Positions 24,735-30,816 of a stretch of 64,000 bases of DNA are shown in pieces (position 1 is the stretch's first letter; every line of letters begins with the position of its first letter). The stretch comes from Gloeocapsopsis crepidinum LEGE 06123 (lineage in GTDB: Bacteria; Cyanobacteriota; Cyanobacteriia; Cyanobacteriales; Chroococcidiopsidaceae): contig NZ_JADEWN010000006.1 in the NCBI RefSeq assembly GCF_015207655.1, positions 1-64,000 on the forward strand, in the 5' to 3' direction. The notes beneath the pieces are model-generated. The model was not told the DNA's origin and searched no databases. It saw nothing but the letters and a program-made list of their open reading frames with translations. The position numbers and the translations under genes are program-made.

Positions 24735-25985
24735 TTGTGCAATCGTAGGTGGGTTTACACAGAAGACTTGAAGGAGGATACTATTATTACACAACTTTCA
24801 CCCAGCGTTATTCCTGATAGTTGGCACGAACCAGCAATTACAGAAATATTATCGCGGGTTGTAGATATTGCTGATTTTGCGTTCAGTAATGCTGCTGCGG
24901 TAGATTGTCACGGAGCCTTCCCCGCGAAAGAATTTGAACTGATTGCGCAAGCGGGGTTATTAACCGCACCGCTACCTCGCGAATTGGGCGGACTAGGCTT
25001 AGGTACACAAGCAGGTGGAACGCTACCATTACTGCTGTTACTTAAACAACTAGGTCGTGGTAATTTATCTGTTGGTCGCGTTTATGAAGGTCACGTTAAT
25101 GCACTACAACTGATCAACACATTTGGAACTCCAAAACAAATTGAAAGCTTTGCTGTAGCCGCACGCGATCGCCATAAAATCTTTGGTGTTTGGAATGCTG
25201 AAGCCGCTGATGGGGTCAAAGTCATTCCTTTAGACAATGGCAATTGTCGGCTGGAAGGTTCTAAAACCTTTGCTTCGGGTTGTGGTTTTGTCGAACGTCC
25301 GTTTGTGAATGGAGTACTACCAGATGGTAGTTGGCAAATGTGTATTGTGCCAATGGATGAAGTTCAGACAATTGTCGATCCTTCTTGGTGGCAACCTTCA
25401 GGAATGCGGGCATCGGCTAGTTACAAAGTAGATTTTACAGGTGTGGAACTCGATCCACTCTACATCATTGGCAATCCTGGCGATTACTTCCGTCAACCGT
25501 GGTTGACAGGAGGTGTGATTCGTTTTGCTGCGGTGCAACTTGGTGGTGCTGAAGCTTTATTTAATTTGACGCGGGAATACCTACACTCACTCAATCGGAC
25601 TCAAGATCCTTACCAAGAAGAACGCCTAGGACAAATGGCGATCGCCATCGAAAGTGGTCATCTTTGGTTACGCGGTGCAGCAACTTTAGTCGATGAGTAC
25701 GCGCCTGTATTTGGTGGCTATGCTTCGGATGAGCATCCCCAAGCAAGCACAATTGTTGCCTATGGCAATATGGTACGCACTGCGATTGAGCAAATCTGTA
25801 TGAATGTCATTCAACTATGCGAACGCTGTGTTGGTACTCGCGGATTACTGCCACCACAACCAATAGAACGCGTCATCCGTGACTTGACTTTGTACCTGCG
25901 ACAACCTGCGTTTGATGCAGCAATCGCCAATATCGGGCAATATGCGCTATCTAGTGAAACCGCAAGTTCGCTATGGACGCTATGA
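24735..25985 (+). CDS. Acyl-CoA-dehydrogenase-fold flavoenzyme
   Basis: Flavoprotein of the acyl-CoA dehydrogenase superfamily, up to 416 residues. Recognisable parts are the N-terminal helical domain with GLLTAPLPRELGGLGLGTQ (74-92), the beta domain with GVWNAEAADGVKVIP and EGSKTFASGCGFV (174-186), and a C-terminal helical domain ending VGTRGLLPPQPIERVIRDL (366-384). The ending resembles ACAD-fold hydroxylases and sugar N-oxygenases as much as true dehydrogenases, so the reaction is open. The start is uncertain: the frame opens at TTG 24735, but a perfect AAGGAGG (24771-24777) lies inside it, 5-8 bases before two ATT codons. The stop overlaps the next start as ATGA. First gene of a three-gene operon facing a glycosyltransferase. 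Confidence 0.85.
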   Translation: MCNRRWVYTEDLKEDTIITQLSPSVIPDSWHEPAITEILSRVVDIADFAFSNAAAVDCHGAFPAKEFELIAQAGLLTAPLPRELGGLGLGTQAGGTLPLLLLLKQLGRGNLSVGRVYEGHVNALQLINTFGTPKQIESFAVAARDRHKIFGVWNAEAADGVKVIPLDNGNCRLEGSKTFASGCGFVERPFVNGVLPDGSWQMCIVPMDEVQTIVDPSWWQPSGMRASASYKVDFTGVELDPLYIIGNPGDYFRQPWLTGGVIRFAAVQLGGAEALFNLTREYLHSLNRTQDPYQEERLGQMAIAIESGHLWLRGAATLVDEYAPVFGGYASDEHPQASTIVAYGNMVRTAIEQICMNVIQLCERCVGTRGLLPPQPIERVIRDLTLYLRQPAFDAAIANIGQYALSSETASSLWTL

Positions 25986-26734
25986 CTTCAATCGTGCCGC
26001 AACCATTATTAGCTCATCCAGAACAAATACCACTACGTCCAGCAAAGGCGATCGCTGACTTTGGTTCTACACTCATCGTCGCACCGCACCCTGATGATGA
26101 ATCGCTCGGTTGTGGTGGTGCGATCGCTTTATTACAGCAGCTTAGTATCTCCGTAGAGGTACTTGTAATGAGTGATGGAACTCAATCGCATCCCAACTCA
26201 CGTCGCTACCCAGCACCAGCCTTAAGAGACTTACGTGAAAGTGAAACTCGCACAGCACTTTCGATACTTGGTGTTAACGCAGTCACATTTTTCCGCCTCC
26301 AAGACGGCGCTGTTCCTCATAGGAATGCCTCAGATTTTGATACGGCTGTGGCTTGCTTACGCGACTATTTATCAAGCCGTAATTTCAAATCGCTCTTTTT
26401 ACCTTGGCGGTACGATCCACACCCCGATCACCGTGCGACTTGGGAACTACTGACAGCCGCAATTTATACTGCAAATTTATCTGTGCGCCAAATTGAATAT
26501 TTGATTTGGGATTGGGATCCCTTGCAACGCAAAGATGCAACACTACCTGGAAATGTTGAGCCGTGGCGGTTGGACATTAGTACAGTAATCGATTTAAAAC
26601 AACAGGCGATCGCAGCATATCGTTCGCAAACAACAGATTTAATTGACGACGACCCTGAAGGTTTTCGTTTGACACCTCAAATGCTGGCACACTTTGCCCA
26701 TTCTTGGGAACTTTACTTGGAGCAGACGCAATGA
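25982..26734 (+). CDS. PIG-L family deacetylase
   Basis: Zinc-dependent N-deacetylase of the LmbE/PIG-L family, which removes acetyl groups from N-acetylglucosamine-type sugars. With the ATG at 25982 (overlapping the upstream TGA as ATGA) it has about 250 residues. The zinc motif is APHPDDESLGCGG (HPDD at 36-39) and the third ligand is the His of HPDH (about 147-150) in RYDPHPDHRATWELL. SDGTQSHPNS and LRESETRTALSILGV are further family landmarks. No signal peptide, so cytoplasmic. It is translationally coupled on both sides; the context suggests an amino-sugar substrate carried by a lipid or nucleotide (inference). Confidence 0.92.
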   Translation: MTSIVPQPLLAHPEQIPLRPAKAIADFGSTLIVAPHPDDESLGCGGAIALLQQLSISVEVLVMSDGTQSHPNSRRYPAPALRDLRESETRTALSILGVNAVTFFRLQDGAVPHRNASDFDTAVACLRDYLSSRNFKSLFLPWRYDPHPDHRATWELLTAAIYTANLSVRQIEYLIWDWDPLQRKDATLPGNVEPWRLDISTVIDLKQQAIAAYRSQTTDLIDDDPEGFRLTPQMLAHFAHSWELYLEQTQ

Positions 26735-27327
26735 ATCAACCAAAGCCACACATGAACTCACTGCAACCTCAATACTTTAACGATCTCTACACTGCTGATG
26801 AAGATCCGTGGCAATTTGAAACAAGTGAGTACGAAGCGCACAAGTATGCAAATACCTTAGCTGTACTACCTAAACAACGCTATCGCTGTGCACTCGAAAT
26901 TGGTTGTTCAATTGGTGTCCTCACCTCGCGTTTAGCTGAACGCTGCGATTTCCTCTTATCAATTGATGCATCGGAAATTGCCTTGAATCGAGCGATTAAA
27001 CGCTGTCAGTACTTATCCCACGTTGAGTTTCAATTGATGCAGGTTCCTCGCGATTATCCACCGCAGACTTTCGATTTGACCTTAGTTTCTGAAGTTGGTT
27101 ATTACTTATCTTGGGATGATTTAAGAAAAACGCAAAAATTGATCCTAGAGCATCTAGAATCAGGAGGGCATCTGCTTCTCGTCCATTGGACACTATATGC
27201 AGAAGATTACCCTTTATGGGGCGATGAAGTTCATGACTCGTTTATGGAACTAACTGATTCGCACTTGCGGCATTTGCGAGGACTGCGGGAAGATCAATAT
27301 CGGCTTGACTTGTTCGAGCGAATTTAA
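26731..27327 (+). CDS. NodS-like SAM-dependent methyltransferase
   Basis: Class I methyltransferase whose layout matches the NodS (nodulation N-methyltransferase) family: DLYTADEDPWQFETSEYE at the N-terminus, motif I ALEIGCSIGVLTSRLA, LLSIDASEIAL, FDLTLVSEVGYYLSWDDL and GGHLLLVHWT. 198 residues from ATG 26731, which overlaps the PIG-L stop as ATGA; the upstream frame from 26704 lies inside PIG-L. NodS methylates the free amine of a deacetylated chitooligosaccharide, so a deacetylase immediately upstream fits an N-methylation step. Its 3' end overlaps the opposed glycosyltransferase gene by 78 bp. Confidence 0.9.
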   Translation: MNQPKPHMNSLQPQYFNDLYTADEDPWQFETSEYEAHKYANTLAVLPKQRYRCALEIGCSIGVLTSRLAERCDFLLSIDASEIALNRAIKRCQYLSHVEFQLMQVPRDYPPQTFDLTLVSEVGYYLSWDDLRKTQKLILEHLESGGHLLLVHWTLYAEDYPLWGDEVHDSFMELTDSHLRHLRGLREDQYRLDLFERI

Positions 27328-28539
27328 ATGAGTTACTGCTTTACGTAAACTGCTTAAACGCAATCGGAGATCGGCGATCGCCTGAGAAATTTCTTGGTAA
27401 GCATCTCGCTCTAATTCAACTGTTTTTTCTTTGGTTCGTTCTAGCAATAAACCAAAAGTAGGTGAATGGGATAGTTCTTCGGTTAACCAAGAAAGGGAAA
27501 CTTTCCATTCATGCGCACATTGTGCAATTTCATATTTGTTTAATTGTTGATGAATACGCGATCGCATCCATAACATCCGTAACTTACGACGTGCTTGCAA
27601 CCGTTGCTCGCTGATTGCTGCCGATTCTACAATAAATGGCTGATGCTGGTGTCCCATCACTGCCCATTCACGTAACTGATTTGCTAAGCCATTTTTGGCA
27701 CGTCCTGTTTGTCGTGCTGAGGTAATCACTTTCACAGCTGGACTATGACGAAACCTCGCATCTACACGTACCAGTGCTTGATAAAAAGCGACATCTTCCG
27801 GCGTACGTACTGCAGGCATACCACCTACACGAGCGTACATTTGCGCTGTAACGGCTAAACTTGCACCATAATGCTGATAATGCCGAGGCCAACATTCGCA
27901 CGGTTCAGGATCGAGATATGTTTCGAGTTCGCTTAGTAAATAGCGATAGCCTACCTCACGCAAGTGACACAATCGCGCATAGGGTTCTAAATAACTGCGT
28001 TCTGCACGGTCTGTAATAATCCTCCCGCCGACTGCATCCGCACCATGAGTTATTTCTTGTATAGTTGCAGCAATCCAAGTCGGTGCTACGCGAGTATCGC
28101 CATCGGTTGAAGCAATGATACCGCGCTTGCGTCCGATACTCATCAAGCGACGATATGCTTCGTGCATCAATATACGTCGTACTTTACCAATATAAGCTTC
28201 GGGCTTGGATAAGGTCATTTCTACTACGTGCAGTGCTAACGATGAATGTTGCTGGGCAAATTTACGAGCGATCGCTGCAGAGTCATCACAGCAGTTATTT
28301 GCAAGCAGAATAATCTCGTAACGGCTGTAGTGTAGTGGTTTTCCTTGTAGATCGATTTGATGTGCTAAGGCATTGAGTGTAGCTACTAAGTGTTCAGCTT
28401 CATCTCGTACTGGTACAACGACACATATTTCACATTCTGCAGCAGGAGGCGTAGTTACTAAAGGCTCAACTGATGCTCCCTGAAACGCTGAATTTGCGTG
28501 GGCTGCTGTTTGCGTTCCAAAACGCTCAATCCCCAGCAT
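27250..28539 (-). CDS. Family 2 glycosyltransferase
   Basis: GT-A-fold glycosyltransferase, 429 residues. The nucleotide-sugar site is shown by CVVVPVRDEAEHLVATLNAL (about 37-56), then LLANNCCDDSAAIARKFA, and the DxD-type GIIASTDGDTRVAPTWI (about 139-155) followed by GGRIITDRAERSYLEPYARL. The C-terminal 150 residues are helical and basic and no membrane helices are evident, unlike processive GT2 enzymes such as NodC. It is transcribed toward the ACAD/PIG-L/methyltransferase operon and overlaps the last gene by 78 bp. I recall the same four families side by side in unrelated bacteria, so a shared pathway is likely. Confidence 0.9.
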   Translation of the reverse strand: MLGIERFGTQTAAHANSAFQGASVEPLVTTPPAAECEICVVVPVRDEAEHLVATLNALAHQIDLQGKPLHYSRYEIILLANNCCDDSAAIARKFAQQHSSLALHVVEMTLSKPEAYIGKVRRILMHEAYRRLMSIGRKRGIIASTDGDTRVAPTWIAATIQEITHGADAVGGRIITDRAERSYLEPYARLCHLREVGYRYLLSELETYLDPEPCECWPRHYQHYGASLAVTAQMYARVGGMPAVRTPEDVAFYQALVRVDARFRHSPAVKVITSARQTGRAKNGLANQLREWAVMGHQHQPFIVESAAISEQRLQARRKLRMLWMRSRIHQQLNKYEIAQCAHEWKVSLSWLTEELSHSPTFGLLLERTKEKTVELERDAYQEISQAIADLRLRLSSLRKAVTHLNSLEQVKPILIFPQSSQMPQVRIS

Positions 28540-29964: not shown

Positions 29965-30816
29965 TTATAGTTCGGTTGGTGCGTAAACGCCTAACTTATC
30001 GTTTAGGAATACAGCTAGAAGACTTTGAGTTAATGACGTTAAACCCAACCGCGCCCGTGCTAGAAGTAGGTTATTTTGTTTGACTTCACCCCAGATCCGA
30101 CAGTGAGTATAGAAGTTTTGCCAAGATTGACATAAATTTAGTGTTATTTTTTCCCACTGTGCTTTTGACTCGGTACTGGGATAATATAAGTTATCAAATA
30201 GCATTAATAATTGCTTGATTAAAGCTTGCTCAGTTGGGTGACAACAAAGAAGGCGTTGTTGAGAATCAAGAAAAGAAATTAGCGTCTGTTCTGAAACAAC
30301 AGGAAAGATATTTTCGGCAGACTCTACTCGCGATCGTAGTGTAATTAATCCTTCTTGTGCAGCTAGCTGTAGAACTGAGCAACAACGAGCATGGGTATAC
30401 TGAAGAGTAAATGACAGCGAAGCACCACTGCCTTTTTGCGAGCAATATTTTTCTATTCTTGGAGGGTTAATAGTGAAGTACTGTAGCCAACTGCCAACAG
30501 TGAGATCTGTTAGTTCTAAATAAATTAAACCTGGTGGTGCTACATGAGTTACGATCGAGGTTGAGCTAACAGCATTTTCTGTAGTGTCAATCAAGTGCAT
30601 CATCATCGTCGCAATTTGCATTGCCGGAAGCTTTTGTACTGTACTTAACTGCAAAGCGATCGCCCAGATATACGTAATTTGATTGTTTTTTAAGTTCCAG
30701 GAAAGATTAATTTTTGGTTTTGCGTACAACTTTTGATTCAGCAAGTATAAATCGAGAGCTATTTGCAGTTGCTGCAATAATACGTGTTTAATTGTGCAGT
30801 ATTTAGGAGATAACAA
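29965..30816 (-). CDS. DALR anticodon-binding-domain protein (ArgS paralogue without catalytic core)
   Basis: The 283-residue protein ends in a DALR-type helical domain like the C-terminus of arginyl-tRNA synthetase: SLSFTLQYTHARCCSVLQLA, LIKQLLMLFDNLYY, WQNFYTHCRIW and RLGLTSLTQSLLAVFLNDKL. The N-terminal 135 residues are family-specific. There is no HIGH or KMSK motif, so it cannot aminoacylate. It may bind tRNA or have become structural; similar DALR-only proteins are known as conserved genes in cyanobacteria. It is divergent from the Crp-type regulator across a 523-bp spacer. Confidence 0.75.
   Translation of the reverse strand: MLSPKYCTIKHVLLQQLQIALDLYLLNQKLYAKPKINLSWNLKNNQITYIWAIALQLSTVQKLPAMQIATMMMHLIDTTENAVSSTSIVTHVAPPGLIYLELTDLTVGSWLQYFTINPPRIEKYCSQKGSGASLSFTLQYTHARCCSVLQLAAQEGLITLRSRVESAENIFPVVSEQTLISFLDSQQRLLCCHPTEQALIKQLLMLFDNLYYPSTESKAQWEKITLNLCQSWQNFYTHCRIWGEVKQNNLLLARARLGLTSLTQSLLAVFLNDKLGVYAPTEL

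Follow-up and report, generated by a model that had tools for sequence, protein, structure and literature searches.

In the cyanobacterium Gloeocapsopsis crepidinum LEGE 06123, four neighbouring genes encoding a flavoenzyme with the acyl-CoA dehydrogenase (ACAD) fold, a PIG-L deacetylase, a NodS-like methyltransferase and a family-2 glycosyltransferase (GT2) constitute one compact, horizontally moving biosynthetic module that is found in at least seven bacterial phyla. The genes lie in the window analysed here, the first 64,000 nucleotides of contig NZ_JADEWN010000006.1 (assembly GCF_015207655.1). Sugar transfer, deacetylation, N-methylation and oxygenation by the flavoenzyme may well combine in this module to give an N-methyl-aminosugar glycoside, a reading to which we assign a probability of roughly 0.55.

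The preliminary description of this DNA placed the four families side by side in unrelated bacteria and named a neighbourhood search as the check; the search bears this out and does not find co-occurrence to be rare outside close relatives. Searched against GTDB genomes, an alignment of the ACAD-fold protein gave 373 relatives, with 80 loci kept, and in the neighbourhood count, based on profiles of the four proteins and requiring all four genes within 6 kb, the complete quartet is present in 54 of the 73 loci with enough flanking sequence and in 66 of the 95 loci overall. The co-located genes occur in Cyanobacteria, Deinococcota, Pseudomonadota, Bacteroidota, Actinomycetota, Verrucomicrobiota and Eremiobacterota, so the arrangement is more than chance. 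Clustering of all neighbour proteins placed each of the four families in all 13 taxon groups; next among real families come the ABC ATPases, histidine kinases and short-chain dehydrogenases/reductases, huge superfamilies that reach 7 of the 13. The same clustering across loci found no fifth gene conserved with the quartet; what looked like extra families were for the most part large superfamilies or the antisense shadows of core genes. Eight gene orders are observed, with the GT2 gene on either side and on either strand, yet overlaps of 1-4 bp among the ACAD, PIG-L and methyltransferase genes recur across loci; the linkage is thus maintained and not merely inherited. The ends of the methyltransferase and GT2 genes also overlap in 39 of 55 adjacent pairs from several phyla, mostly tail to tail and by 35-98 bp.

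The four genes also travel together at the level of whole genomes. Among 194 cyanobacterial genomes the same five, and no others at comparable score, hold all of them: the ACAD-fold protein reaches at least 603 bits in these five (next value 163), the PIG-L protein at least 298 (next value 186), the GT2 at least 472 (none else above threshold) and the methyltransferase at least 295 (one further genome at 227). Where the ACAD gene has no adjacent partner, mostly in Methylobacterium, a strong PIG-L match is present elsewhere in 17 of 18 genomes and a GT2 match likewise in 17 of 18. In Deinococcus radiodurans a single replicon carries all four genes; a helicase gene separates those for PIG-L and the methyltransferase, and the GT2 gene is 176 kb off. 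The pairwise distances of the four proteins are correlated over 65 loci (Mantel rho 0.61-0.81, null maximum 0.19). A tblastn search of plasmids led to annotated quartet loci in Deinococcus, Novosphingobium, Sulfitobacter, Komagataeibacter, Bradyrhizobium, Paracoccus, Roseivivax, Jiella, Sphingomonas and Acinetobacter, and to at least three of the four genes in D. gobiensis, D. radiodurans, Roseomonas, Pandoraea and Kitasatospora; the matches on Sinorhizobium pSymB were set aside as a PIG-L-like gene alone. In a phage search the ACAD gene had no match. The methyltransferase matches two records named 'Acinetobacter phage MD-2021a' (CAKLQH020000004.1 and CAKLQF020000002.1), each time beside an LmbE gene; these records, of 232 and 306 kb, are possibly bacterial sequence.

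Three independent rearrangements of the module speak for chemistry on a sugar amine. A Gloeobacterales genome (L084, 3172-4518) has the one fusion of the PIG-L and methyltransferase genes. On a plasmid of Rubrobacter indicoceani (L107:9069-13720) the row consists of a CE4 NodB-type deacetylase, a divergent ACAD-fold gene, a NodS-like methyltransferase, a Pyr_redox_2 reductase and a GT2; the deacetylase keeps its TFDDGP motif intact and lacks an evident signal peptide, a search of this plasmid found no PIG-L gene, and the reductase may be what supplies the flavoenzyme with electrons. In three Deinococcus loci (L009:6780-9143, L103:8762-11101 and L104:8702-11050) the ACAD-fold enzyme is fused to an N-terminal domain of about 390 residues. 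This domain has itself no Pfam match but is similar to clan-A glycosidases, with NEIS and AETG motifs; a relative in the same locus matches GH1, and a stand-alone relative is encoded at L072:5339-6577. Separately, extended modules with extra GT4, GT28-like and GT7C-type glycosyltransferases are present in sphingomonads and Methylobacterium (L011, L102, L117), and in Methylobacterium the extended module is split over at least two places in the genome.

The PIG-L protein belongs to the PIG-L/LmbE family (PF02585, 84.4 bits against a cut-off of 28.2), and its catalytic motifs are intact, PHPDDE and PHxDH being kept across 29 relatives with H145, D147 and H148 invariant. Its relatives in the PDB are of the diacetylchitobiose deacetylase and N-acetylglucosamine (GlcNAc)-malate deacetylase (BshB) type, which act on GlcNAc glycosides; as BshB1 it scores 68.9 bits, far under the cut-off of 182.5 of the NCBIfam equivalog TIGR04001. 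For the methyltransferase the nearest named family is NodS (Pfam, 61.9 bits against a cut-off of 24), and with 72.8 bits against the cut-off of 300 of NCBIfam NF041650 it is a relative of NodS and not an equivalog. In profile comparison it matches NodS itself (3ofj) at 102 bits, N-terminal DPW motif included, and more closely, at 174 bits, 4isc, an orphan putative methyltransferase of the PDB that has no assigned function and is its closest solved relative. The preliminary description suggested a deacetylated, N-methylated or N-oxidised glycan or lipid as a possible product; deacetylation and N-methylation of a sugar amine are supported in that the PIG-L motifs are intact, the methyltransferase is akin to NodS, the two genes can be fused and in Rubrobacter a NodB-type deacetylase stands in for PIG-L.

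The glycosyltransferase is assigned to the GT2 family with the GT-A fold, and its motifs are equally intact: DxD (D146, D148) and ED (E248, D249) are invariant in 39 sequences. The predicted structure (pLDDT 89.8) is a soluble GT-A domain plus helices whose closest structural neighbours are the GT-A enzymes WrtF, RmlT, TarS and TarP. No membrane segment of the kind expected of a NodC-type synthase was found, no 19-residue window exceeding a Kyte-Doolittle mean of 1.3, and in the same hydrophobicity scan all four proteins of the module were without membrane segments.

The ACAD-fold enzyme has lost the base on which dehydrogenation depends. In ACADs the catalytic base is the Glu of the IYEG/IFEG motif (MCAD E376, SCAD E368), and isovaleryl-CoA dehydrogenase (IVD) uses an alternative position, E254. 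Canonical ACADs encoded in two of the same genomes read RDAxxxxIYEG/IFEG, whereas RDLxxYLRQP stands in this family, all 50 of 50 sequences having R389 and Q390; no Glu is within reach, and an invariant Gly occupies the position of IVD E254. With neither position retained a dehydrogenase mechanism is unlikely, and with it the action on an acyl chain that had been offered as one option. The AlphaFold2 model is a confident ACAD fold (pLDDT 89.5). The comparison of KijD3-type N-oxygenases with true dehydrogenases that had been suggested for it put neither first, the nearest group being, by a narrow margin, DszC, TdsC and MsuC. In profile scores DszC (103 bits), TdsC, MsuC (91) and a flavin-containing monooxygenase (88) come ahead of any acyl-CoA dehydrogenase (74) and of the nitrososynthases KijD3 (73) and DnmZ (67); in structure DszC, TdsC and MsuC reach Z 42.5-41 (3x0y: Z 42.4, rmsd 2.2 over 365 residues), and ACADs and nitrososynthases 41-39 (ACADs about 40-41, KijD3 39.5, DnmZ 39.0). 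By this closest kinship in sequence and modelled fold the enzyme is classed as an unassigned subfamily near the class-D flavin monooxygenases DszC and MsuC. Ser181, Ser in 45 and Thr in 5 of 50 sequences, matches DszC Ser163; DszC His391 aligns with R389/Q390. An initial pairing of DszC His92 with the invariant His120 of the family was dropped, since the alignment pairs His92 with Arg115. The family also has an invariant EGH.N motif specific to it. As DszC itself it scores 63.9 bits against the NCBIfam NF043015 equivalog cut-off of 850, and the His391 of that equivalog is lacking too.

We infer the following scheme, including donor and acceptor of the sugar, step order, methylation site, oxygenation and physiological role. 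The soluble GT2 would glycosylate a widely available acceptor with an N-acetylhexosamine, probably GlcNAc; the PIG-L enzyme would take off the N-acetyl group; the NodS-like enzyme would methylate the freed amine with S-adenosylmethionine (SAM) as donor; and the flavoenzyme, acting not as a dehydrogenase but as an oxygenase supplied with reduced flavin by a house-keeping reductase, would oxygenate the aminoglycoside, most plausibly at nitrogen. This amino-sugar N-oxygenation is suggested by the gene context and by the precedent of the nitrososynthases. What results would be a small N-methyl-aminosugar glycoside, soluble or lipid-linked, that aids survival of drying, light and oxidants.

The neighbours and hosts of the module can be read as pointing to such a role on dry surfaces or under oxidative stress. 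A KatE-type catalase gene lies within 10 kb in 9 of 95 scanned loci, a raw count; further frequent neighbours within this distance are Mn-catalase, Dps, a universal stress protein, otsBA for trehalose, Ku/LigD, a ferritin-like protein, spore photoproduct lyase and CsbD. The hosts include Deinococcus, Methylobacterium, Hymenobacter, lichen and leaf isolates and terrestrial cyanobacteria, and the module is often plasmid-borne with stress genes alongside. We tentatively put forward a more specific product, possible rather than probable: a plasmid-borne stress metabolite of at least seven phyla including D. radiodurans, namely an N-methylated, N-oxygenated aminosugar glycoside such as a radical-trapping nitrone or hydroxylamine, made through a new ACAD-fold amino-sugar oxygenase subfamily.

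Several observations weigh against the proposed scheme. The flavoenzyme has no equivalent of DszC His391, which helps form hydroperoxyflavin (a computational study, as cited in PMC11134501, assigns it this part), so that oxygenation is a putative activity. The structural Z gap between monooxygenases and dehydrogenases is just 1.5-2 units. No flavin reductase is in the conserved set, Rubrobacter alone having a Pyr_redox_2 gene inside it, and the Rubrobacter replacement is a single case in which the search covered its plasmid alone. Finally, many plasmids are crowded with stress genes.

Four other explanations have been considered. The quartet could decorate an oligosaccharide built by other glycosyltransferases, on the cell surface or linked to lipid, with a single N-methylated aminosugar, and not make a free small molecule; this is the strongest of them, though we think it rather improbable. 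The extra glycosyltransferase genes shared by the sphingomonad and Methylobacterium modules speak for it, as do the GT4 and UDP-galactopyranose mutase genes that adjoin the module in Deinococcus; however, no gene for a flippase, polymerase or exporter is conserved alongside the quartet at the loci, none of the four proteins has a membrane segment, and the same quartet serves hosts with very different envelopes, which makes a universal acceptor more likely. A low-molecular-weight redox buffer of the bacillithiol or mycothiol type, in which a glycosyltransferase and a PIG-L enzyme make a glucosaminide that is elaborated further and the DszC-like enzyme acts on sulfur, appears decidedly unlikely. 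For it speak that a glycosyltransferase and a PIG-L enzyme are the known first half of bacillithiol synthesis (PMC6282198), that the neighbourhoods are rich in catalase and that the flavoenzyme scores nearest to S-oxygenases; against it, no cysteine ligase of the BshC/MshC type recurs at the quartet loci, the GT2 is not of the family of BshA, the BshB1 score falls far below its equivalog cut-off, and NmbA methylates the cysteine nitrogen of bacillithiol and not the sugar (PMC6282198).

Still harder to sustain is a true acyl dehydrogenase that modifies the fatty chain after the other three enzymes have made a glycolipid: Pfam and annotation do name an acyl-CoA dehydrogenase and the fold matches ACADs with Z about 40, but an invariant RQ(P) stands in place of IYEG and an invariant Gly in place of the alternative Glu, and no acyltransferase, acyl carrier or electron-transferring flavoprotein gene is conserved with the set at the loci. 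A Nod-factor-like lipochitooligosaccharide signal is scarcely credible. A GT2, an N-deacetylase and a NodS-like methyltransferase do occur together, in Rubrobacter even with a NodB-type deacetylase, and the parallel with Nod-factor chemistry drawn in the preliminary description holds for two steps only; it is otherwise loose, because the GT2 lacks a membrane part and its alignments fall on non-membrane GT-A enzymes rather than on NodC-type membrane synthases alone, and no NodA-type acyltransferase is in the set conserved at the loci. Many hosts, for example Deinococcus, Hymenobacter and Acinetobacter, are moreover not symbionts.

In the window, open reading frames and Pfam matches confirm the layout described earlier: the three plus-strand genes, linked by two ATGA overlaps, form one operon faced by the convergent GT2 gene (Table 1), and all matches (Acyl-CoA_dh_N and Acyl-CoA_dh_2, PIG-L, NodS, Glycos_transf_2) are above their cut-offs.

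Table 1. Features at the four-gene locus, in positions of the window.
Feature	Position	Strand	Open reading frame	Basis and remarks
Shine-Dalgarno AAGGAGG of ACAD-fold gene	24771..24777	+		Read directly; such motifs at the homologous place in L017, L018, L020, L084 and L101
ACAD-fold flavoenzyme	24783..25985	+	24735-25985, open from TTG 24735	PF02771/PF08028, AlphaFold2 model, start-codon comparison; likely start ATT 24783 or 24786
PIG-L (LmbE) family N-deacetylase	25982..26734	+	25973-26734	PF02585, 84 bits; ATG 25982 overlaps the ACAD-fold stop (ATGA 25982-25985)
NodS-like SAM methyltransferase	26731..27327	+	26704-27327	PF05401 (NodS), 62 bits; ATG 26731 overlaps the PIG-L stop (ATGA 26731-26734)
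Soluble family-2 glycosyltransferase (GT-A)	27250..28539	-	27250-28539	PF00535, 35 bits; convergent, tail-to-tail overlap of 78 bp with the methyltransferase gene (27250-27327)
DALR-domain protein	29965-30816	-		283 residues; arginyl-tRNA-synthetase-type DALR anticodon-binding domain without the catalytic part, stand-alone

The TTG codon that opens the first reading frame is probably not used as a start. The Shine-Dalgarno motif stands before the two ATT codons, and residues 1-26 of the TTG-started form are disordered in the AlphaFold2 model. In the orthologues of three other cyanobacteria (L017, L018, L020) an ATT follows a Shine-Dalgarno motif at about the same place, and in two of them (L017 and L020) there is no ATG, GTG or TTG upstream of the conserved domain; in L084 and L101 the codon is AUC. 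The cyanobacterial gene appears, from this comparison, to start with AUU (window, L017, L018, L020) or AUC (L084, L101); rare AUU starts are otherwise known from infC and pcnB. The genes flanking the quartet look unrelated to it: upstream, by reading of translations, GuaA-like, MoaA-like and ribosomal S4-like proteins, and downstream, by Pfam matches, a HAD hydrolase and the DALR-domain protein.

The suggestion that this is a widespread undescribed pathway is strongly supported, and a full-text search of open-access papers found no description of it. Candidates from that literature were set aside: the DLP3 phage has PIG-L with sugar genes and no ACAD, the aminoglycoside cluster of Rickettsia buchneri has PIG-L with other enzymes, and stratospheric Curtobacterium and Acinetobacter Tol 5 have catabolic ACADs only. 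A four-gene pathway that is mobile, often near catalase and stress genes and present across seven phyla is without a described product in searchable papers. Because of its small size, its self-contained nature and its occurrence in tractable laboratory species (D. radiodurans, Methylobacterium, Nostoc relatives), the product could be found by deleting or expressing the four genes; this would also decide whether the many proteins that bear the annotation acyl-CoA dehydrogenase are in fact amino-sugar oxygenases.

The module has several near counterparts among known systems. Like NodC, NodB and NodS of Nod-factor synthesis, it joins a GT2, a sugar N-deacetylase and an N-methyltransferase of the NodS family on what would be GlcNAc-derived substrates, the Rubrobacter module even having the NodB type; it differs in the soluble GT2, in PIG-L in place of NodB in most hosts, in lacking NodA, in the additional ACAD-fold flavoenzyme and in the sub-equivalog NodS score. 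With the synthesis of bacillithiol and N-methyl-bacillithiol (BshA, BshB, NmbA) it would share GlcNAc transfer followed by PIG-L deacetylation, a SAM-dependent N-methyltransferase and a cytosolic location, but the glycosyltransferase is of another family, no cysteine ligase is found at the loci, a flavoenzyme is added, and NmbA instead methylates cysteine. The nitrososynthases KijD3, ORF36 and DnmZ are ACAD-fold flavoenzymes that N-oxygenate amino sugars; they act on dTDP-amino sugars, and the module flavoenzyme scores lower to them than to DszC and MsuC. The class-D FMN monooxygenases DszC, TdsC and MsuC remain its best match in profile and structure, with the Ser at the DszC S163 position mostly kept, and it is distinguished from DszC by Arg at the position of His92, Arg/Gln at that of His391 and its own EGH.N motif.

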